This document shows positions 14,133-61,095 of a DNA stretch of 64,000 bases, piece after piece. The notes under the pieces are model-generated. The model did not search any database. It was not told the DNA's origin and worked only from the letters and a program-made list of their open reading frames with translations. This DNA comes from Leifsonia virtsii (lineage in GTDB: Bacteria > Actinomycetota > Actinomycetes > Actinomycetales > Microbacteriaceae): assembly GCF_030433675.1 (NCBI RefSeq), contig NZ_JAROCB010000001.1:865333-929332 (forward strand), read 5' to 3'. Both the position numbers and the translations under genes were made by a program. Each line of letters begins with the position of its first letter. Position 1 is the stretch's first letter.

Positions 14133-14185
14133 ATGGGGCGCAACACGCCGCGTCGCTCGCGCGATAACGGCGTGTTGCGCCCCAT
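14133..14185. repeat. 18-bp perfect inverted repeat, CRACACGCCG family
   Basis: The left arm (14133-14150) and right arm (14168-14185) are perfect reverse complements of 18 bp around a 17-base loop region. The arms contain CAACACGCCG. It separates the convergent DUF4031 and rne genes and could act as a two-way terminator. Its right arm and the following GGATGC are nearly repeated at 39911-39934. Confidence 0.85.
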
Positions 14186-14191
14186 GGATGC

Positions 14192-16735
14192 TTACTCGGA
14201 CTTGGGTGCGAGCTCCCCGCCGGCGATGACGGCCGTGCTGGCGCGACGGCTGCGGCTGCGGCCCTGACCCGGCTCCTTCGGAGCGGGCAGTGCGTCGAGC
14301 ACGGAGTCGAGCAGCAGCTCGGTCTCCTCGGCCGACGGGCGCGGCGCGGGCTCGTGCACGACGGCGGGCTCGGGAAGGTCGAGCAGCGGGAGCACGTGCT
14401 CCTGCTCCGGCTCGGCCTCGGCGGCCGCGTGGGGCGCTGCGTCGACGTCGGACGCCGCCGGCTCGGCCGCCGGTTCCGTCTCCCCGGCCGGCTCCGTCTC
14501 GGGCGCCTGCTGCCGGTCGGCGCCGCCCTTGCCCTTGCGGCGGCGCTTCTTCGTCGCGGTGACCTCGGTCACCACGACCTCCGCGACGCTGATCTCCGTC
14601 ACCTCGGCGGACGCGTCGGCGTCGTGCGCCTTCGCCTCCTCCTCGTGGTGGATGGTGGAGGCGGCGATCTTGGCGAGCGCGTTCTTGGCGTCGTCGGTGA
14701 TGGCGTGCGTGCCGGTGTGACCGTTGCCGTTCCCATTCCCGTTGCCGTTCGCGGGGGCGCCGCCGTTGCCGTTGCCGCCCCGGCCGCGCCTGCGCTCGTT
14801 CTGCTGCTGCGGCTGCTGCTGCTGGCGGTGCTTCACGACCGGGTCGTGGTGCACGATGACACCGCGTCCTGCGCAGACCTCGCACGCCTCGCTGAAGGTC
14901 TCCAGCAGGCCGAGGCCGAGCTTCTTGCGGGTCATCTGCACGAGACCGAGCGAGGTGACCTCGGCGACCTGGTGCTTCGTCCGGTCGCGGCTCAGGCACT
15001 CCACCAGGCGGCGCAGCACGAGGTCGCGGTTCGACTCGAGCACCATGTCGATGAAGTCGACGACGATGATGCCGCCGATGTCGCGCAGGCGCAGCTGGCG
15101 GACGATCTCCTCTGCGGCCTCGAGGTTGTTCTTGGTGACCGTCTCCTCCAGGTTGCCGCCGGAGCCGACGAACTTGCCGGTGTTGACGTCGACGACTGTC
15201 ATCGCCTCGGTGCGGTCGATGACCAGCGACCCGCCGGAGGGCAGCCAGACCTTCCGCTCCAGCGCCTTCTCGATCTGCTCGGTGATGCGGAACTCGTCGA
15301 ACGCGTCCCGATCCCCCGTGTACGCCTCGACGCGGTCGAGGAGGTCGGGGGCGACCTGTCGCAGGTAGTTCTCGATGGTCTGGCGGGCGTCGTCCCCGGC
15401 GATGACCAGCTTCTGGAAGTCCTCGTTGAAGACGTCGCGAATGATCTTGATCAGGAGGTCGGGCTCGCTGTGCAGGAGCGCAGGCGCCTGCTGCGACTCG
15501 ACCCGGGTGCTGATGTCGGCCCACTGCGCCTTCAGACGGTTGACGTCGAGAGTCAGCTGCTCCTCGGTGGCGCCCTCGGCGGCGGTGCGGACGATGACGC
15601 CCGCGCTCTCCGGCAGCACCTCCTTGAGGATCTTCTTGAGGCGCGAGCGCTCGGTGTCCGGGAGCTTGCGGCTGATGCCGTTCATGGAGCCGTTCGGCAC
15701 GTACACCAGGTAGCGGCCGGGCAGCGAGATCTGGCTGGTCAGGCGGGCGCCCTTGTGGCCCACCGGGTCCTTCGTGACCTGCACGAGCACGCGGTCGCCC
15801 GCCTTCAGCGCCAGCTCGATGCGGCGCGGCTGGTTGCCGGTCTCGACCGCGTCCCAGTCCACCTCGCCGGAGTAGAGGACGGCGTTGCGGCCGCGGCCGA
15901 TGTCGACGAAGGCGGCCTCCATGCTCGGGAGGACGTTCTGCACCCGGCCGAGGTAGACGTTGCCGATGAGCGACGCCTCCTGCGAGCGGGCGACGTAGTG
16001 CTCGACGAGGACCTTGTCCTCCAGCACGCCGATCTGGATGCGGCCGCCCTTCGAGCGCACCACCATCTGCCGGTCGACGGACTCGCGGCGGGCGAGGAAC
16101 TCGGCCTCGGTGATGACCGGACGGCGGCGCCCGGCGTCGCGGCCGTCGCGGCGGCGCTGCTTCTTCGCCTCGAGGCGCGTGGAGCCCTTCACCTTCTGCG
16201 GCTCGGTGATGAGCTCGGGCTCGCGCGGGGTGCGCACCTTCACGACTGTGTTGGCCGGGTCGTTCGCGCTCTCGCGGCCGGACTCCCCCGCGCGGCGGCG
16301 GGAGCGGCGGCGGACACCGCCGGCCGGCTCCTCGTCGTCCTCGGGGAGCGGCGGGAGCGGCAGCACGTCGGGCGCCTGGAACAGCAGCGTGGTCGGCGGC
16401 AGCCCCGGGGCGGCGGCTCCGGCGGCCGGGGCCTCCGGCTCGCCGTGCTGCTCCGGGAGCGCAGGCGGCTCGTGCGCGGCGCCGGGACCGGCGGGAGCGG
16501 CGGCCTCGGCCGGCGCGGCCTCGGCCTCCGCCTCCGGCGCGTTCGCCTCCGCCGTTCGGGCGTCGGGCGAGCTCGCCTCAGCGGCGGGTGCCGCCGGAGT
16601 CTCGGAAGCGTCGGCGTTCTCGGCCTGCGAACCCCGTCTCACGACGCGTCGTGCGCCGAAGAGGCCCTTCCGCTTCCGTCCCCCTGGTTCCGTCTCGTTG
16701 TTGTCCGTGTTGTCGATATTCTCGTTATCCACCAT
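14192..16735 (-). CDS. rne: Ribonuclease E/G
   Basis: This is an 847-residue Rne/Rng endoribonuclease, the main mRNA decay and rRNA processing enzyme of actinobacteria. A long acidic, Ala/Pro-rich N-terminal extension (about residues 1-210) precedes the catalytic core. The S1 domain includes GRNAVLYSGEVDWD; the RNase H-like catalytic part shows WLPSGGSLVIDRTEAMTVVD and IIVVDFIDM; the zinc link is CEVCAGRG. The C-terminal arm is disordered, with Gln runs (HRQQQQPQQQNERRR) and Asn-Gly repeats. It starts at ATG 16735. Confidence 0.96.
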   Translation of the reverse strand: MVDNENIDNTDNNETEPGGRKRKGLFGARRVVRRGSQAENADASETPAAPAAEASSPDARTAEANAPEAEAEAAPAEAAAPAGPGAAHEPPALPEQHGEPEAPAAGAAAPGLPPTTLLFQAPDVLPLPPLPEDDEEPAGGVRRRSRRRAGESGRESANDPANTVVKVRTPREPELITEPQKVKGSTRLEAKKQRRRDGRDAGRRRPVITEAEFLARRESVDRQMVVRSKGGRIQIGVLEDKVLVEHYVARSQEASLIGNVYLGRVQNVLPSMEAAFVDIGRGRNAVLYSGEVDWDAVETGNQPRRIELALKAGDRVLVQVTKDPVGHKGARLTSQISLPGRYLVYVPNGSMNGISRKLPDTERSRLKKILKEVLPESAGVIVRTAAEGATEEQLTLDVNRLKAQWADISTRVESQQAPALLHSEPDLLIKIIRDVFNEDFQKLVIAGDDARQTIENYLRQVAPDLLDRVEAYTGDRDAFDEFRITEQIEKALERKVWLPSGGSLVIDRTEAMTVVDVNTGKFVGSGGNLEETVTKNNLEAAEEIVRQLRLRDIGGIIVVDFIDMVLESNRDLVLRRLVECLSRDRTKHQVAEVTSLGLVQMTRKKLGLGLLETFSEACEVCAGRGVIVHHDPVVKHRQQQQPQQQNERRRGRGGNGNGGAPANGNGNGNGNGHTGTHAITDDAKNALAKIAASTIHHEEEAKAHDADASAEVTEISVAEVVVTEVTATKKRRRKGKGGADRQQAPETEPAGETEPAAEPAASDVDAAPHAAAEAEPEQEHVLPLLDLPEPAVVHEPAPRPSAEETELLLDSVLDALPAPKEPGQGRSRSRRASTAVIAGGELAPKSE

Positions 16736-17659: not shown

Positions 17660-17662
17660 GCC

Positions 17663-17716
17663 GGTTGACGCGACACGCCGCCCGGCCGGGCGGCCGGACG
17701 GCGCGTCGCGTCAACC
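17663..17716. repeat. 18-bp inverted repeat with CGACACGCCG core
   Basis: Arms 17663-17680 and 17699-17716 match at 17 of 18 positions (the exception allows a G-T pair). The left arm ends in CGACACGCCG. It lies between the convergent VKOR and ndk genes; a bidirectional terminator is the simplest role. Confidence 0.8.
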
Positions 17717-23539: not shown

Positions 23540-23608
23540 CCCCGCCGAGTTGCACGTCGTGGCGGCCATTCGGCCGAAATAGCCGCCACGACGCGCAACT
23601 CGGCGGGG
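23540..23608. repeat. 27-bp inverted repeat between ileS leader and hypothetical gene
   Basis: Arms 23540-23566 and 23582-23608 match at 26 of 27 positions, and the centre holds the palindrome TTCGGCCGAA. It is the longest inverted repeat in the window. It sits after the stop of the minus-strand gene at 23616 and just before the ileS promoter, so it may terminate the upstream transcript. Confidence 0.85.
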
Positions 23609-24011: not shown

Positions 24012-24042
24012 GCCCGGAGCGTAGCCGACGCAGGCCGCTCTC

Positions 24043-24116
24043 GCGCGACTGCGGTCCCGCGGAACGTCTGCGGGTGCGCGCGCACCAGCAGACGTGACGG
24101 GAGGCCGCAGTCGCGC
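24043..24116. repeat. Nested inverted repeat, GCAGACGT/CGCAGTCGC family
   Basis: Outer arms GCGCGACTGCGG (24043-24054) and CCGCAGTCGCGC (24105-24116) are perfect. Inner pairs TCCCG/CGGGA, ACGTCTGC (24064-24071)/GCAGACGT and GTGCG/CGCAC continue the hairpin. The stop codon of the TetR gene lies at its edge. Related elements occur at 45195, 53748 and, in part, 43484. Confidence 0.8.
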
Positions 24117-24733
24117 TAGAGGAAGGGGGCGTAGCCCGCGCAGACGGGGGCGACCGCGGTGCGCACGAGCGGGGTGAGCGGGCCGCGGCGGACGCCGGCA
24201 CGCGCCCAGGCCGCGGCGGCGGAGACAGCGGCGCCGACGACCGCGGTCGCGGCGGCCCGCGGAAGCAGCGCGTCCGACGGAAGTCCCGCCCGCTGGGCGA
24301 TGAAGGTTTCCAGCCGGCGCACCAGCGCCAGGAAACGGGGAAGCGCGGAGGCCTGCAGCTCCGCATCCGTGCCCATCAGCTCCACCTGGGTCACCGCCAG
24401 TGGGAGCCGGCCGGGGCCGAACGCGTCGGCGAGGCGCGTGAGCGCGTCGAGCACGGCGTCCATCGGGGCGGCATCGGCGGGTGCGGCCGCGAGCGTGTCG
24501 TCGAAGGCGGCGAGCGCTTCGTCGACCTCCAGCCAGAGCAGGTCGCTCTTCGCGCCGAAGTAGTTGAAGAAGGTGGCCCGGCTGACCCCGGCGCGGCGGG
24601 CGATGTCGTCGACGGTGGTGCCGGCGTAGGTCTGCTCGAGGAAGAGTTCGGCGGCGGCCTCCGCGATCATGCCGCGGGACGAGGAGCGCGGCCGGCCGGC
24701 GCCGGCGGGGCGGGCGGAATGCGCGAGCGCCAT
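24116..24733 (-). CDS. TetR/AcrR family transcriptional regulator
   Basis: The product is 205 residues with a typical N-terminal TetR DNA-binding domain (IAEAAAELFLEQTYAGTTVD, then RRAGVSRATFFNYFGAKSDL) and a helical C-terminal ligand-binding part. It is divergent from an MFS transporter gene 64 bases away, and a 13-base palindrome between them is the likely operator. The arrangement suggests a repressor of the transporter and of itself, released by the transported compound or a relative. The ATG at 24733 was chosen because longer frames run through the operator region. Confidence 0.88.
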   Translation of the reverse strand: MALAHSARPAGAGRPRSSSRGMIAEAAAELFLEQTYAGTTVDDIARRAGVSRATFFNYFGAKSDLLWLEVDEALAAFDDTLAAAPADAAPMDAVLDALTRLADAFGPGRLPLAVTQVELMGTDAELQASALPRFLALVRRLETFIAQRAGLPSDALLPRAAATAVVGAAVSAAAAWARAGVRRGPLTPLVRTAVAPVCAGYAPFL

Positions 24734-28821: not shown

Positions 28822-29264
28822 CGGTGACCGTGCGACCGGTGCGGGACAACGAGTTCTTCACCTGGCTCGACCTGTACGCAGGCTACGGCGACTTCTACGA
28901 GAGCCCGGTGACGGACGAGAAGGCGCTGCTGGTCTGGAGCTGGATCTCCGATCCCGGCAACGAGCTGGAGGCGTACTTCGCCGTCGACGAGGAGGACACG
29001 CCCATCGGCCTCGCGCACGTGCGCGAGTTCGTGCGTCCGCTCGACGGCAGCAAGGGCCTGTACCTCGACGACCTGTTCGTGAGCCCCGACTCCCGCGGCG
29101 CCGGTGCAGGCGCCGCCCTGCTGGAGGCCGTCCGCGAGCAGGCCAAGGAGCGCGGCCTCTCGGTCGTCCGCTGGATCACGGCGAAGGACAACGAGACGGC
29201 CCGCCGCCTGTACGACAGGTTCGCCGAGAAGACCAAGTGGGTCACGTACGACCTCGTCCCCTGA
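28818..29264 (+). CDS. GNAT family N-acetyltransferase, copy 1 of tandem pair
   Basis: The product is 148 residues with a compact GNAT fold. The motif-A region is LDDLFVSPDSRGAGAGAALLEAV, followed by VVRWITAKDNETARRLYDRF, the typical GNAT motif-B segment. Its ATG overlaps the valS stop, so it is in the valS operon. A second, clearly homologous gene follows 70 bases later. Aromatic and acidic residues near the N-terminus (FFTWLDLYAGYGDFYE) are conserved in both copies and may shape the substrate pocket. The substrate is unknown. Confidence 0.88.
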   Translation: MTVTVRPVRDNEFFTWLDLYAGYGDFYESPVTDEKALLVWSWISDPGNELEAYFAVDEEDTPIGLAHVREFVRPLDGSKGLYLDDLFVSPDSRGAGAGAALLEAVREQAKERGLSVVRWITAKDNETARRLYDRFAEKTKWVTYDLVP

Positions 29265-29334: not shown

Positions 29335-29808
29335 ATGTCGATCGAGGTTCGACCGGTCAGGGACGGCGATTTCTTCGCCTGGCTCGATGTGTACGCCGAG
29401 TACGCCCGGTTCTACGAGACCGAGCTGACCGACCAGAAGGCGCTCGTCCTCTGGTCCTGGCTGACCGACCCCGAGCACGAGGAGGACGGCTACGTCGCCG
29501 TCGACGGGGACCGGATCGTCGGCCTCGCCCACGTGCGCGAGTTCGCCCGGCCGCTGGAGGGCGACCGCGGGCTGTTCCTCGACGACCTGTTCGTCGTCGA
29601 GGAGGAGCGCGGCAAGGGCGTCGGCTCCGCCCTCATCCAGAAGGCCCGTGCCCTCGCCGAGGAGCGCGGACTCGGCGTCGTGCAGTGGATCACCGCACAG
29701 GACAACGCCACGGCGCAGAAGCTCTACGACGCCGTCGCCAGCCGCACGTCGTGGGTCACCTACGAGATCGACCTGGCGTCCGCCCCTGTCGAGGCGGGGC
29801 GCGCCTGA
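29335..29808 (+). CDS. GNAT family N-acetyltransferase, copy 2 of tandem pair
   Basis: The product is 157 residues, more than half identical by eye to the preceding gene product: VRPVRDGDFFAWLDVYAEY, GLAHVREFARPLEGDRGLF, LDDLFVVEEERGKGVGSAL and VQWITAQDNATAQKLYDAV align without large gaps. It has its own strong ribosome-binding site (GGAGGA, five bases before ATG). The copy is longer by a short Ala/Val tail. The pair must come from a tandem duplication. Its last base overlaps the next start (TGATG). Confidence 0.88.
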   Translation: MSIEVRPVRDGDFFAWLDVYAEYARFYETELTDQKALVLWSWLTDPEHEEDGYVAVDGDRIVGLAHVREFARPLEGDRGLFLDDLFVVEEERGKGVGSALIQKARALAEERGLGVVQWITAQDNATAQKLYDAVASRTSWVTYEIDLASAPVEAGRA

Positions 29809-30077: not shown

Positions 30078-30127
30078 GCTCCCGCACTCGACACGCCGCG
30101 CGTTCGCCTCGCGAACACAGACGATCG

Positions 30128-39328: not shown

Positions 39329-39817
39329 TCAGTCGTCGTCGAGCGCGGCGGCGTACGCCGTCACGGCGCGGCCGTAACGGGGCAGGTGCGGGGCGAGGGC
39401 GCCGAGCGCCTCGCGCAGCGCGTCGGCCCGCATCCCGTCGTCGAAGAGCGCGAGCGCGGCGAACGCACGGGCGGCGTCGGCGAGGGGATGCTCGGGCTCG
39501 GCGAGCAGGAAGTCGCGCAGCAGCGCGAGCGCCTCGGCCGGCCGGTCGAGGTTGCGCAGGGTGCTCGCGAGCTGCACGATCGCCTGCCCGCGGTACGGCT
39601 CGTCCAGGCCGTGGGCGAGCGCTGCGCGGTAGAACGGCTCGGCGTCGGCCTCGCGGCCGGCGAAGTCGCGGGCGCTCGCGGCCTCGAAGAGCGCCTCGGG
39701 GTCGTCCGCGGGACGTTCTGCCACGAGCGCGTCGATCGCGGCGAGCGTCGCATCCTCGGTGCCGTCGGCGGCGTCCGTCCACACGGCGTCCACCCGTTCC
39801 CGCCAGTCGTCGCTCAT
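39329..39817 (-). CDS. Tetratricopeptide-repeat (TPR) protein
   Basis: The product is 162 residues, alpha-helical, with TPR-like repeats ([60 protein letters not shown]). The sequence resembles the 'tetratricopeptide repeat protein' found near tig in related actinobacteria, where it may be a scaffold or co-chaperone. The start ATG 39817 has GGAGGAGCG upstream. It lies between tig and clpP1, separated from tig by an inverted repeat, so it may have its own promoter. No catalytic motif is seen. Confidence 0.75.
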
Positions 39818-39871
39818 CCGCGCTCCTCCGCTCCCGCTGTGCTGCCTATCGTGCCAGACGGCCCTTCGGGC

Positions 39872-39934
39872 CATCCATGGGACGCAACACGCCGTTATCG
39901 CCGCGGCATTACGGCGTGTCACGTCCCATGGATG
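39872..39934. repeat. 24-bp inverted repeat, CRACACGCCG family (second copy)
   Basis: Arms 39872-39895 and 39911-39934 match at 22 of 24 positions. The left arm contains CAACACGCCGTTATCGC, which is also present (reverse strand) in the element at 14133. It lies after the tig stop on the minus strand and so may end the tig transcript. Confidence 0.85.
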
Positions 39935-39992
39935 CGCGAAAGCCGGGCAGCGCGTGGTGCGCGGCCCGGCTGTCGCGACGGGGAAGGGCGAC

Positions 39993-41399
39993 TTACTTGT
40001 CGTCGGCCTTCTTCTTGGTGGAGCGCTTCTTCGGCTTCTCCTCGGCGGCGGGGGCCTCCTCGGCGGCTTCGCCGCCATCGGACGGGGTCTCGGCGGCTTC
40101 GCCGCCGTCGGCGTCCTCGGAGTCGGGGAGGGCGGTGAACTCGGCCAGGTCGACCGGCTTGCCGTCGGTGTCGACGACCTTCACCTTGCCGAGGATGATC
40201 GCGAGCGCCTTGTTGCGGGCGACCTCGCCGACCATCGACGGGATCTGGCCGTTCTCGCTGAGGATCTTCACGAACTCGTTCGGGTCCATGCCGTACTGGC
40301 CGGCGCCCTGGATGAGGTACTGGGTGAGCTCGTCCTGGCTGACCTTGATGTCCTCGTTCTGCGCGACCTCGTCGAGGAGGATCTGCGTCTTGAACGTCTT
40401 CTCGCTGGACTCCTTGACCTCGGCGCGGTGCACGTCGTCCTCGAGGCGGTTCTCCTGCTCCAGGTGGCGGTGGACCTCGTCCTCCACCAGCTGCTCCGGA
40501 ACCGGGATCTCGACCAGCTCGAGGAGCTTGTCGACCAGCTGGTCGCGCGCGGCCGTGCCCTGGCCGAACACCTTGGCGCGCTCGACCTGCGTGCGCAGGC
40601 TCTGGCGCAGCTCGCCGATGGTGTCGAACTCGCTGGCGATCTGGGCGAAGTCGTCGTCGGCCTCCGGGAGCTCGCGCTCCTTGACGGCGTTCAGCGTGAC
40701 GGTGATCTGCGCGTTCTCGCCCTCGTGGTCGCCACCCATGAGCGGGGCCTCGAAGGTGGTGGTCTCGCCGGCAGTGAGGGTGTCGAGCGCCTCGTCGATG
40801 CCGTCGATGAGCTCGCCGGAGCCGATCTCGTACGAGATGTTGGCGGCGGTGTCGACCTCCTCGCCACCGATCTCGGCGGTCAGGTCGATCTGGGCGAAGT
40901 CGCCGGTCTTGGCCGGGCGGTCCACGGTGACGAGGGTGCCGAAGCGGCTGCGGAGGCGGTCCAGCTCCTCCTCGACGTCATCCACCGACACCTCGGCCTT
41001 GTCGACCGTGATGGTGATGTCGTCGAAGTTCGGCAGGGTCACCTCGGGGCGCACATCCACCTCGATGGTGAGCAGCAGGTCGCCCGAGAAGTCCTTCTCG
41101 TTCGGCCACTCGGTGATGTCCGCCTCCGGGCGGCCGAGCGGACGGACGTCGTTCTCCTCGATGGCACGGCGGTAGAACCCGTCGAGACCCTCGTTGACCG
41201 CGTGCTCCAGGACGGCGGCCTTGCCGACCCGCTGGTCGATGATGGGCGGCGGCACCTTGCCCTTGCGGAAACCGGGGATGGTCACCTGCTCGGCGATGTG
41301 CTCGTACGCGTGGGTGATGGACGGCTTCAGCTCCTCCGGCGTCACCGAGATGGTGAGCTTGGTGCGGGTGGGGCTGAGCTTCTCGACCGTGGTCTTCAC
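39993..41399 (-). CDS. tig: Trigger factor (ribosome-associated chaperone, peptidyl-prolyl isomerase)
   Basis: This is a 468-residue chaperone. The N-terminal ribosome-binding domain has the signature [11 protein letters not shown] near residues 43-53; the central FKBP-like PPIase domain (about 150-240) carries [20 protein letters not shown], and the helical C-terminal chaperone arms follow. The last 40 residues are acidic/basic low complexity ending in [12 protein letters not shown]. It starts with GTG. tig-clpP-clpX order links folding of new chains with degradation. Confidence 0.96.
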
Positions 41400-43427: not shown

Positions 43428-43483
43428 CCCCTATCTCCGGCTTCTTCCGCGATTGACACCGCTCGTCACGATTGCACCCGCTC

Positions 43484-43520
43484 GCCCCACCGCAGACGTG
43501 ACGCAAGCCCGCAGTCGCTG
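43484..43520. repeat. Partial copy of the GCAGACGT/CGCAGTCGC element
   Basis: CACCGCAGACGTGACG followed by CCGCAGTCGC matches the right half of the element at 24043-24116, but the left half is missing or decayed apart from GTCACG at 43465. It lies 57 bases past the island repeat. Confidence 0.6.
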
Positions 43521-45194: not shown

Positions 45195-45266
45195 CGCGAC
45201 TGCGGTGGTCCGGAAGGTCTGCGGGTGCTCGCGCAGGCGCAGACGTTCCGGACCACCGCAGTCGCG
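45195..45266. repeat. 21-bp perfect inverted repeat, GCAGACGT/CGCAGTCGC family
   Basis: Arms 45195-45215 and 45246-45266 are perfect reverse complements; inside, GTCTGC and GCAGAC form a second stem pair. It lies between a sensor kinase gene and its response regulator gene on the same strand, and so could end or reduce transcription between them. Confidence 0.85.
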
Positions 45267-51200: not shown

Positions 51201-53747
51201 TTGCCCGGAGAAAACCTCACCCGCATCGAAGCACAGGAGCGCGCGTCGCTCGTCCGCACCCACTCGTACGACGTCAGCCTCGATCTGACCACCGGGCCGG
51301 AGACCTTCCGCAGCACCACGACCGTGCGGTTCTCGGCGAAGGAGGGGGCGTCGACGTTCATCGACGCGATCACGCGGACGGTGCACTCGGTCACCCTGAA
51401 CGGCGTGGAGCTCGACCCCGCCGCGGTGAGCGACGGCGTGCGCATCCAGCTCGACGGCCTCAAGGACGAGAACGAGCTGACCGTCGACGCCGACGCGATC
51501 TACACCAACACCGGAGAGGGACTGCACCGCTTCGTCGACCCGGTCGACGGCGAGGTGTACCTGTACAGCCAGTTCGAGGTGCCGGACTCGCGGCGCATGT
51601 TCGCCGTGTTCGAGCAGCCCGATCTGAAGGCGCAGTTCACGTTCACCGTCACCGCGCCGGCCCACTGGGCGGTCGTGAGCAACTCCCCCACGCCCGAGCC
51701 GACCCACGCCGGCGACGACAAGAAGGTCTGGGCGTTCGCTCCGACCCCGGTCATCTCCTCGTACATCACCGCGCTGATCGCCGGCCCCTACGAGTCGGTC
51801 CACAGCGAGCTCACCAGCCGCGACGGCCGCACCATCCCGCTCGGCGTGTACGCGCGCAAGAGCCTGGCCGAGTACCTCGACGCCGACTACATCTTCGACA
51901 AGACGCGCGAGGGCTTCGCCTTCTACGAGGAGCGCTTCGACTACGCCTACCCGTTCGAGAAGTACGACCAGCTGTTCGTGCCGGAGTTCAACGCGGGCGC
52001 GATGGAGAACGCGGGCGCGGTCACCTTCACCGAGACCTACGTCTTCCGGTCGAAGGTCACCGACGCGATCAAGGAGCGCCGGGTCGTCACGGTCCTGCAC
52101 GAGCTGGCCCACATGTGGTTCGGCGACCTGGTCACCATGAAGTGGTGGAACGACCTCTGGCTGAACGAGTCGTTCGCGGAGTACGCCTCCACCCTGGCCA
52201 CCGCGGAGGCCACCGAGTGGACCGAGGCGTGGACCACGTTCGCCGCCATGGAGAAGAGCTGGGCGTACCGCCAGGACCAGCTGCCCTCGACGCACCCGAT
52301 CGTCGCCACGATCAACGACCTGGAGGACGTGCAGGTCAACTTCGACGGCATCACGTACGCCAAGGGCGCCTCGGTGCTCAAGCAGCTGGTCGCCTGGGTC
52401 GGCCAGGACGACTTCCTCGCCGGTGTCGCGCAGTACTTCAAGAAGCACGCGCACGGCAACACCGAGCTCAAGGACCTGCTGGTGGAGCTTGAGGCCACGA
52501 GCGGCCGCGACCTGACCGACTGGTCGAAGAAGTGGCTCGAGACGGCCGGGGTCAACACCCTGCGCCCGGAGCTGTCGGTGGACGCGGACGGCACGATCAC
52601 GTCGTTCGCCGTGCTGCAGTCCGCTGCGGCCGACTACCCGACCATCCGCCCGCACCGCCTCGCGATCGGCCTCTACAACCTCAGGGAAGGCAAGCTGGTA
52701 CGCGACCAGCGCCTGGAGCTGGACGTCGACGGCGAGCGCACCGATGTCGCCGAGCTGGTCGGCACGAAGCGCCCCGACCTGGTGCTGATCAACGACGACG
52801 ACCTCGCGTACGCGAAGATCCGTCTCGACGAGGCGTCGCTGGCGGTCGCGATCGAGCACCTCTCCGACATCGAGAGCCCGCTGGCCCGCTCGCTGGTCTG
52901 GGGCGCCGTCTGGGATGCGACCCGCGACGCCGAGACGAGCGCGAGCGACTACGTGCGCCTGGTGCTGGGCAACATCGCCTCGGAGACCGAGTCGACCACC
53001 ATCCGCACCACGCTGAACCAGCTCGTGCTCGCCGCGAACGCCTACGTCGCTCCGGAGCGGCAGACGGAGACCGCGCACGCCGCAGCCGACGCGCTGTGGG
53101 AGCTCGCGAAGGGCGCCGAGGCGGGCAGCGACGCGCAGTTCCAGTTCGTGAAGTTCTTCGCGGCCCTCGCCTCGACGGACGAGCAGCTGGCGACCATCGC
53201 GGGCCTCCGCGACGGCTCGATCGCCCTCGACGGCCTCACGGTCGACACCGATCTGTCGTGGGAGCTGCTCATCGCGCTCGTCGCGGGCGGCGCGGCGGGC
53301 ACCGCCGAGATCGACGCGGCCCTCGCAGCGGACAACACCGCGAACGGCGGCCAGTTCGCCGCGCAGGCGCGCGCCAGCATCCCGACGCTCGAGGGAAAGC
53401 AGGCGGCGTGGGACTCGGTGTTCGGCTCCGACAACCTGCCGAACACGATCGTCCGCTACACCGGGATCGGCTTCCAGCGCGCGAAGGACAAGAGCGTGCT
53501 CGCCGCCTTCGTCGGGCCGTACTTCGCGGCGCTGCAGGGCATCTGGACCTCGCGCACCTACAAGATCGCGGAGTACCTGGTCGAGGGCATGTACCCGGCG
53601 CCGCTCGCGAACGAGGAGCTGCGCGACGCGACCCGCGCCTGGCTCGACGCCAACAACGAGCCGGCGGCGCTCCGCCGCATGGTGGTGGAGAACCTCGCCG
53701 GGGTGGAGCGCGCGCTCGCCGCGCAGAAGCGCGACGCCTCCGCCTGA
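51201..53747 (+). CDS. pepN: Aminopeptidase N (M1 family zinc peptidase)
   Basis: This is an 848-residue M1 aminopeptidase removing N-terminal residues from peptides. The exopeptidase motif is in FNAGAMENAGAVTFTETYVF; the zinc motif HELAH (about residue 299) is followed by MWFGDLVTMKWWNDLWLNES, with the third ligand Glu. The start is the rare codon TTG, supported by GGAG seven bases upstream and by the N-terminus MPGENLTRIEAQERASLVRT, which is typical for actinobacterial PepN. The C-terminal ERAP1-like helical domain is complete. Confidence 0.96.
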   Translation: MPGENLTRIEAQERASLVRTHSYDVSLDLTTGPETFRSTTTVRFSAKEGASTFIDAITRTVHSVTLNGVELDPAAVSDGVRIQLDGLKDENELTVDADAIYTNTGEGLHRFVDPVDGEVYLYSQFEVPDSRRMFAVFEQPDLKAQFTFTVTAPAHWAVVSNSPTPEPTHAGDDKKVWAFAPTPVISSYITALIAGPYESVHSELTSRDGRTIPLGVYARKSLAEYLDADYIFDKTREGFAFYEERFDYAYPFEKYDQLFVPEFNAGAMENAGAVTFTETYVFRSKVTDAIKERRVVTVLHELAHMWFGDLVTMKWWNDLWLNESFAEYASTLATAEATEWTEAWTTFAAMEKSWAYRQDQLPSTHPIVATINDLEDVQVNFDGITYAKGASVLKQLVAWVGQDDFLAGVAQYFKKHAHGNTELKDLLVELEATSGRDLTDWSKKWLETAGVNTLRPELSVDADGTITSFAVLQSAAADYPTIRPHRLAIGLYNLREGKLVRDQRLELDVDGERTDVAELVGTKRPDLVLINDDDLAYAKIRLDEASLAVAIEHLSDIESPLARSLVWGAVWDATRDAETSASDYVRLVLGNIASETESTTIRTTLNQLVLAANAYVAPERQTETAHAAADALWELAKGAEAGSDAQFQFVKFFAALASTDEQLATIAGLRDGSIALDGLTVDTDLSWELLIALVAGGAAGTAEIDAALAADNTANGGQFAAQARASIPTLEGKQAAWDSVFGSDNLPNTIVRYTGIGFQRAKDKSVLAAFVGPYFAALQGIWTSRTYKIAEYLVEGMYPAPLANEELRDATRAWLDANNEPAALRRMVVENLAGVERALAAQKRDASA

Positions 53748-53817
53748 GCGACTGCGCCACCCTGTCACGTCTGCGGCTGCGCGCGCGGCCGCAGACGTGA
53801 CATACCGCAGCAGTCGC
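53748..53817. repeat. Inverted repeat, GCAGACGT/CGCAGTCGC family, after pepN
   Basis: GTCACGTCTGCGGC (53764-53777) and GCCGCAGACGTGAC (53788-53801) are a perfect 14-bp pair. Outside them GCGACTGCG (53748-53756) faces CGCAGCAGTCGC, which pairs with a three-base bulge. It begins one base after the pepN stop and likely ends its transcript. Confidence 0.8.
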
Positions 53818-53881
53818 GGGTCGGACCGGACCGAGTGCAGCGTCGTACCGGGGGACGATGACGCCGCGGCACGTGCGCCCC

Positions 53882-61029: not shown

Positions 61030-61095
61030 CCGTCGAGTCCGCAAAGACTCTACGGCCGCACGGCGTGTCGCGTGCAGTCTTTGCGGACTCGACGG
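61030..61095. repeat. 20-bp perfect inverted repeat with CGACACGCCG core
   Basis: Arms 61030-61049 and 61076-61095 are perfect reverse complements. The loop region holds CGGCGTGTCG (61061-61070), the reverse complement of CGACACGCCG. It separates two convergent genes. Confidence 0.85.

Follow-up and report, generated by a model that had tools for sequence, protein, structure and literature searches.

The palindrome under study, 63 bp long, lies between the genes of trigger factor (tig) and a TPR_5 protein in a stretch of 64,000 nucleotides of the Leifsonia virtsii genome, hereafter the window. A second palindrome of the same family stands in opposite orientation beside an RNase E/G gene, and palindromes with other arms are found elsewhere in the window. 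The features are given below, with letters A to I as the family labels of this analysis; palindromes carry no strand assignment.

39872-39934, no strand: family A palindrome, 63 bp, between the trigger factor and TPR_5 genes, beyond the ordinary tig hairpin
39993-41399, minus strand: trigger factor (tig) gene, flanking the palindrome at 39872
39329-39793, minus strand: TPR_5 gene, on the other flank of the same palindrome
39935-39977, minus strand: ordinary compact terminator-like hairpin behind tig
14133-14190, no strand: family A palindrome, about 58 bp, in orientation opposite to the copy at 39872, between a plus-strand open reading frame (end 14126) and the RNase E/G gene
14192-16735, minus strand: RNase E/G gene, adjoining the palindrome at 14133
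17663-17716, no strand: family F palindrome with GGTTGACGCGACACGCCG arms, in the convergent gap between a VKOR gene (plus) and an NDK gene (minus)
23540-23608, no strand: family E palindrome with GAGTTGCACGTCGTGGCGGC arms
24038-24121, no strand: family D palindrome with CGCGACTGCGG arms
30089-30098, plus strand: lone decamer, in a convergent gap
43448-43519, no strand: degenerate copy resembling family D (67% to the reference)
45195-45266, no strand: family D palindrome; family F-type palindromes stand at the same gene end in congeners G004, G012, G013 and G018
53747-53818, no strand: family D copy, core 53763-53802
61030-61095, no strand: family C palindrome with TCGAGTCCGCAAAGACT arms, in a convergent gap; decamer at 61061-61070 on the minus strand

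An earlier note on this DNA had described the elements at 39872 and 14133, and both proved to be real palindromes of about 58-63 bp at the positions it named. Inverted repeats were likewise recovered at 17663-17716 and at 61030-61095, as was a decamer (CRACACGCCG) standing alone at 30089-30098, and the intergenic position claimed for all five sites was upheld with our own simple gene caller, which was used for all gene calls and whose stop positions are firmer than its starts. The run said to be shared by the two family A elements does extend over 30 bases in opposite orientation, with one differing base that had been skipped: the minus strand of the 14133 element reads CATCCATGGG-G-CGCAACACGCCGTTATCGC, and the 39872 element reads CATCCATGGG-A-CGCAACACGCCGTTATCGC.

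Compact hairpins similar to the one behind tig were recognized by eye in 26 of the 28 genus genomes, the two exceptions (G020 and G004) having a family F palindrome instead. Behind the same gene, the sequence YAT[CG]GTG[CG]CAGA was seen by eye inside the palindrome loop in G007, G008, G012, G013, G018 and G024, and outside the palindrome in G025 and in the window (39847-39858). Either the arms arose around DNA of the host, or this enclosed sequence later became free. These window positions correspond to a promoter-like TATCGTGCCAGA, a version of which lies within the palindrome loop of six congeners. At the gathering score, Rfam recognized only three tRNAs in the whole window, and the palindromes matched no Rfam family. 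Two direct repeats of 164 nt, 74% alike, were also noticed at 28830-28993 and 29347-29510.

Palindrome families and the decamer within them

The genome holds well over a hundred long, near-perfect hairpins that belong to at least eight sequence families and lie just behind genes. The palindromes measure 50-85 bp. A search for palindromes independent of sequence, performed on 864 kb, returned 65 with a score of at least 17, of which 51 contained motifs of families A-F, while one local shuffle of each of three stretches yielded none of this score. Eight arm families recur in the sample of the L. virtsii genome and a ninth in congeners, and the length of the spacer (loop) is nearly constant within each of them:

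Family A: arms CATCCATGGGACGC-AACACGCCG, spacer 17 (one 18)
Family B: arms AGCTCCTGAGTTCTTCGA, spacer 19-20
Family C: arms TCGAGTCCGCGAAGACTGCACG, spacer 15-16
Family D: arms GCGACTGCGGTCGTCCGGAACGTCTGCG, spacer 14
Family E: arms GAGTTGCACGTCGTGGCGGCTATTC, spacer 5
Family F: arms GGTTGACGC-RACACGCCG, spacer 18
Family G: arms ATTCGTGCCGAATGTGCG, spacer 17
Family H: arms GAGGTGCTCGTCGTTGC, spacer 22, with one copy in the L. virtsii sample (two further listed copies belong to family E, at the mismatch limit) and more in congeners
Family I: arms CATCGCTTCCTCGCTTAATCCGCC, spacer 15

By eye, a second inner pattern, approximately YTAT-N9-ATAR, is apparently common to families A, E and G. Family G-like units of 20 bases (GATTCGTGACGAA) form a short tandem array at G000:C2:144115-144175, and a further type of gene-end palindrome, with CGAGTGGYGACA-like arms, was noticed at G020:C32:60262-60300 (the site of window position 14133), G000:C3:92878 and G000:C3:268489.

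In regard to the decamer, its extension GCRACACGCCG is present in 138 copies in the genome of 4.2 Mb, against 20 for the reversed control pattern, and 72 of these copies form 36 inverted pairs with the members 14-20 bases apart. Within the window the enrichment is mild, with 6 matches against a shuffle mean of 1.98, a number reached by 2 of 100 shuffles. The earlier note had proposed that its repeat family would fall if the decamer were no more frequent between genes than base composition predicts. When genic and intergenic decamers were counted in 1.033 Mb, about 90% of which was called coding, only 11 of 70 were genic, compared with 8 of 10 matches for the reversed decamer, and 51 of the 70 sit in inverted repeats. 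Similarly, the 17-mer CAACACGCCGTTATCGC, with up to 2 mismatches, occurs at 15 places, 14 of which are long palindromes, as judged by eye from their folds. The proposal of a dispersed palindromic repeat family was correct, except that the decamer does not define the family, since it recurs in families with unrelated outer arms. It is an inner module common to several palindrome families. In families A and F it is paired in the stem, in many copies of B, C and H and in one copy of I it stands singly in the loop, and none of the D, E and G copies listed contains it.

Two ideas about single decamers were abandoned. The one at 30089 is not a decayed family A copy, because the congener G020 retains the same decamer directly beside a complete A palindrome that is absent from L. 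virtsii. An orientation preference suggestive of an RNA signal, with 7 of 7 loops in tandem gaps pointing the same way at first, shrank to 9 of 11 with more data from the genus (one same and two opposite in L. virtsii, one same in G003), and two Mycobacterium loops pointed one each way.

Placement behind genes and exchange between relatives

The family palindromes are strongly associated with gene ends. The set considered here was built by single-linkage clustering, which lumped families together and also admitted one assembly artefact and some few hairpins of the ordinary kind, and the counts of placement and of hairpin exclusion refer to this uncleaned set. In 1.033 Mb of the L. virtsii genome it comprises 98 elements, 57 of them in convergent, 34 in tandem and 5 in divergent gaps and 2 in genes, whereas gaps of at least 40 bp in the same sequence number 92 convergent, 294 tandem and 150 divergent. 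The excess in convergent gaps corresponds to an odds ratio of 7 (p ~1e-16), and the 91 family palindromes with a stop codon beside them lie at a median distance of 8 nt from it.

A separate compact hairpin accompanies the family palindrome in only 2 of 61 convergent gaps that contain one, as opposed to 14 of the other 40 (p 2.8e-5). As both so rarely occur together, the palindromes appear to replace terminator-like hairpins in convergent gaps, with the caveat that room is limited there and that the exclusion may in part reflect this. Tandem gaps showed no such exclusion, with compact hairpins in 6 of 37 gaps with a palindrome and in 59 of 309 without (p 0.83). Behind the family palindromes viewed together with their flanks, no T-run was seen by eye, and the stems are long, unlike an intrinsic terminator, in which a U-tract follows a compact GC hairpin. 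In having a GC-rich stem without a U-tract they resemble the U-lacking, I-shaped terminators of GC-rich bacteria described from Streptomyces Term-seq data, which, in the available text of that study, are not presented as repeated sequence families (PMC8269248).

The comparison with close relatives disclosed considerable turnover at these positions. The congener G020 is colinear with L. virtsii over 221 kb of aligned blocks with a mean identity of 93.6%. At orthologous gene ends, palindromes of one family are exchanged for those of another (F in L. virtsii for a G-like palindrome in G020, A for F and B for C), a plain hairpin is exchanged for a family C palindrome, and clean presence/absence of palindromes is found in both genomes. 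At one family B site the loop is reverse-complemented while the arms and flanks are unchanged. Among 48 family elements mapped by script in the two genomes, 18 were the same in place, 7 partly the same, a class that includes same-family sites with a changed loop, and 23 different or absent, as compared with 23 of 27 ordinary hairpins found the same in place; two family rows and one ordinary row were unmapped. The p value of this difference (8e-5) is too small, because the elements of both genomes were pooled and each common site was counted twice. Taken separately, 8 of 24 family elements against 11 of 13 ordinary hairpins were the same in place from the L. virtsii side, and 10 of 24 against 12 of 14 from the G020 side. 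Four L. virtsii rows from the 233 kb stretch were doubtful; with 36478 and 83766 re-filed as ordinary and 139597 and 139668 dropped, the pooled counts became 18 of 44 family elements and 23 of 29 ordinary hairpins (p 0.0016). The same kind of exchange was observed in four further congeners at the window gaps near 17660, 23537, 39830-39985, 45188 and 61018. Alignment of empty and filled sites, few in number and inspected by eye, gave no clear target-site duplication.

Such a distribution could be explained without any mobility, by bidirectional terminators of recurring design that selection maintains through the RNA hairpin; a terminator design was one of the two readings offered at the outset. 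This explanation agrees with the position of the palindromes after stop codons and between convergent genes, with the exclusion of compact hairpins from convergent gaps, and with orthologous sites where one species has a plain hairpin and its relative a palindrome. Selection on a hairpin, however, would not conserve arms of 20 bases across unrelated gaps, and the recurrence of these arms is left unexplained. Maintenance of the RNA hairpin should leave more G-U than A-C mispairs on the transcript strand of tandem sites. A looser count did give 18 G-U against 9 A-C, an excess that was dropped when the family-anchored count gave 31 against 26 (p 0.30). Furthermore, at 10 sites occupied by the same family in L. 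virtsii and G020, stem changes were one-sided in 18 cases and two-sided with pairing kept in only 2, with pairing lost in 1. The arms at these sites differ at 24 of 432 bases (5.6%), close to the 6.4% of the aligned region, and the loops at 30 of 167 bases, 27 of the 30 being at three sites. As the arms change about as fast as the region around them and show no G-U preference, the near-perfect pairing points to recent arrival and not to selection on RNA. From this we infer that the elements are young, near-perfect and decaying, with additional events at the DNA level that change the loop. A terminator design as the sole explanation is therefore unlikely.

Distribution among genomes and the search for a mobiliser

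The families differ greatly in copy number among related genomes. With up to 1 mismatch allowed, family B arms number 57 in L. virtsii, 108 in G020 and 3 in G013, and they are missing from the remaining 25 congeners and from 32 genomes of more distant organisms. For family E, counted with up to 3 mismatches, the balance is the opposite, with 83 arms in L. virtsii and 2 in G020, followed by 17 in G012, 16 in G018 and 0-4 in the rest, where low counts are possibly due to chance. Family C arms are more widespread, numbering 139 in G014, 90 in G013, 76 in G018, 63 in L. virtsii, 59 in G020, 51 in G012, 18 in G004, 14 in G025, 8 in G016, 1 in G015 and none in 18 genomes. Several family C copies in G013 carry one identical change on both arms, as expected if the palindrome is copied. 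Paired decamer cores occur in 18 of the 28 genus genomes, with 0 to 37 in each, and in 38 of 299 genomes of the taxonomic family, where two genomes of the genus g92 hold 38 and 20.

Repeated arms, a short variable spacer, extragenic position, jumps in copy number and presence/absence all speak for the other reading offered at the outset, that of a REP-like mobile element. In a REPIN, a short and diverse spacer separates two inverted arms, and the element is duplicated by a RAYT transposase (PMC8049555). The palindromes share with them the inverted conserved arms, the short diverse spacer, the hairpin, the many copies and the lone decaying halves (PMC8049555), and they too are extragenic, near the 3' ends of genes. 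Unlike in REPINs, there are many families per genome, different families at one orthologous site and a near-constant spacer. REPs also have a GTAG-type tetranucleotide at the foot of the stem. The Y1/RAYT domain (PF01797, E 0.001) was found in 0 of 28 genus genomes, that of L. virtsii included, and in 5 of 14 named genomes that served as a control. The architecture is REPIN-like, but membership among the REPINs fails because the transposase is absent. We know of no enzyme other than RAYT that spreads such hairpins.

A search of the whole genome for an autonomous element with family B ends found none. Family B arms without a close partner at 1 mismatch, four in the sampled stretches and 11 outside them, were all paired when more mismatches were allowed (10 of those outside by script, one by eye). 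For the other families lone arms were counted only roughly and in 800 kb, and lone matches were mostly at the mismatch limit. These results bear on the possibility that the palindromes are MITE-like derivatives of a DDE transposon, with the arms as terminal inverted repeats. Inverted termini, bursts of copies and clean presence/absence would suit such derivatives, whereas the missing autonomous partner of family B, the absence of a convincing target duplication at the few sites inspected by eye, the near-constant spacer lengths and the presence of eight unrelated termini in one genome make this origin improbable. An origin from plasmids or phages was also rejected, as family A had no match in either and family C none in plasmids.

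Other known repeats show partial similarities to the REPIN-like palindromes described here. The SLS families (Petrillo 2006, Cozzuto 2008) are repeated foldable stem-loops that lie at 3' ends and favour convergent gaps; one of them, Myt-1 of M. tuberculosis, is 72 bp long and has 75 copies (PMC1590033, PMC2267715). Site-by-site exchange, loop inversion and a common loop module are found in our palindromes and not in the available text of the SLS descriptions. The palindrome GAATCCAT(N)23ATGGATTC of Bradyrhizobium, an alphaproteobacterium, is likewise extragenic and near 3' ends, with different spacing and sequence (PMC5217627). None of the titles listed by our literature searches concerned the repeats studied here.

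Outside the genus, a scan for GGGNCGCRACACGCCGTTAT matched 7 stretches of named genomes, two of them from Leifsonia sp. C5G2. In Mycobacterium pinniadriaticum and in a Pseudonocardiales MAG, convergent-gap palindromes with unrelated arms carry the decamer, and with it the CGACACGCCG module, in the loop. As the scan pattern itself selected for the decamer, such hits represent occurrence and not frequency. Among 13 further CCGACACGCCG loci of the Mycobacterium, the script placed 4 within such palindromes and one more was recognized by eye; the corresponding numbers are 0 of 12 fetched places in the same Pseudonocardiales genome, where one neighbouring decamer does lie in such a palindrome, and 0 of 5 in Microbacterium halimionae. 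A decamer loop as a dense feature of the Mycobacterium was dismissed, with only 9 palindromes of score at least 14 in 400 kb and none of them with the decamer; weaker decamer-bearing palindromes do exist there. Within the genus, the congener G003 contains no paired cores, and there the decamer sits in the loop of an arm family peculiar to that genome. Dispersed palindromes whose arms resemble CCCTGAGCCTGTCGAAGGGACG were seen in another genus of the taxonomic family (G182:C1 389, 672, 37369 and 114790), and a literature search on CCCTGAGCCTGTCGAAGGGACG-like strings returned nothing.

DNA uptake sequences reach about a thousand or more copies per genome, many of them inside genes. That the decamer is a signal for DNA uptake or protein binding, with inverted pairs that also serve as terminators in the manner described for Haemophilus, would fit its presence in families with unrelated arms and in palindromes of the Mycobacterium and the Pseudonocardiales genome, yet it is highly improbable given the modest total of 138 11-mers and the few genic decamers in the sample, the location of most decamers within palindromes, the listed D, E and G copies without any and the unconvincing orientation relative to tandem transcripts. 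The Haemophilus case is similar in its short motif in inverted pairs behind genes, and it differs in having about 1300 copies (PMC5217627). In our palindromes the outer arms are conserved by family.

Probably mobile palindromes as possible suppliers of transcript ends

Taken together, the elements are neither an artefact nor an ordinary set of terminators: they are REPIN-like palindromes without a RAYT that are exchanged at gene ends. We consider it probable that they are non-autonomous mobile palindromes standing in for terminator hairpins at gene ends. They would spread by copying, presumably through an enzyme acting in trans, and their hairpins are predicted to stop transcription. According to this model, an element consists of two inverted copies of a family-specific arm of 17-28 bp around a spacer of near-constant family length, and new copies would arrive as near-perfect palindromes behind stop codons. 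Palindromes could be tolerated or favoured there, since one long hairpin could end both converging transcripts and take the place of an ordinary terminator. Resident copies would then decay at about the neutral rate, disappear, undergo inversion or replacement of the loop, or yield to a palindrome of another family.

A bolder extension, which we put forward only tentatively and regard as doubtful, is that the palindromes represent an actinobacterial class of mobile hairpin DNA that does not depend on RAYT, with exchangeable arms and the common inner module CGACACGCCG. A putative enzyme acting on hairpins would insert, invert and replace them at gene ends, and each species would thereby rewrite the ends of its transcripts.

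As about three fifths of the sampled convergent gaps of at least 25 bp (61 of 101) hold a family palindrome, transcript ends in this lineage could be supplied and replaced by mobile DNA. If so, terminators would evolve through swapping and not by point mutation alone, and a mobiliser other than RAYT would be left to be found. Close species with opposite sets of families make such swapping directly testable.

The hairpins also seem to leave traces in the assemblies. In that of L. virtsii, homopolymer junk and Ns occupy a family E palindrome at G000:C2 ~955509-955771, as though sequencing had failed at the hairpin. In G020, family arms are found no more than about 130 bases from the start of contigs C9, C17, C23, C30, C31 and C32, and the decamer is equally close to the start of contigs C21, C35, C51, C58 and C82 of G344, which suggests that such hairpins break short-read assemblies.
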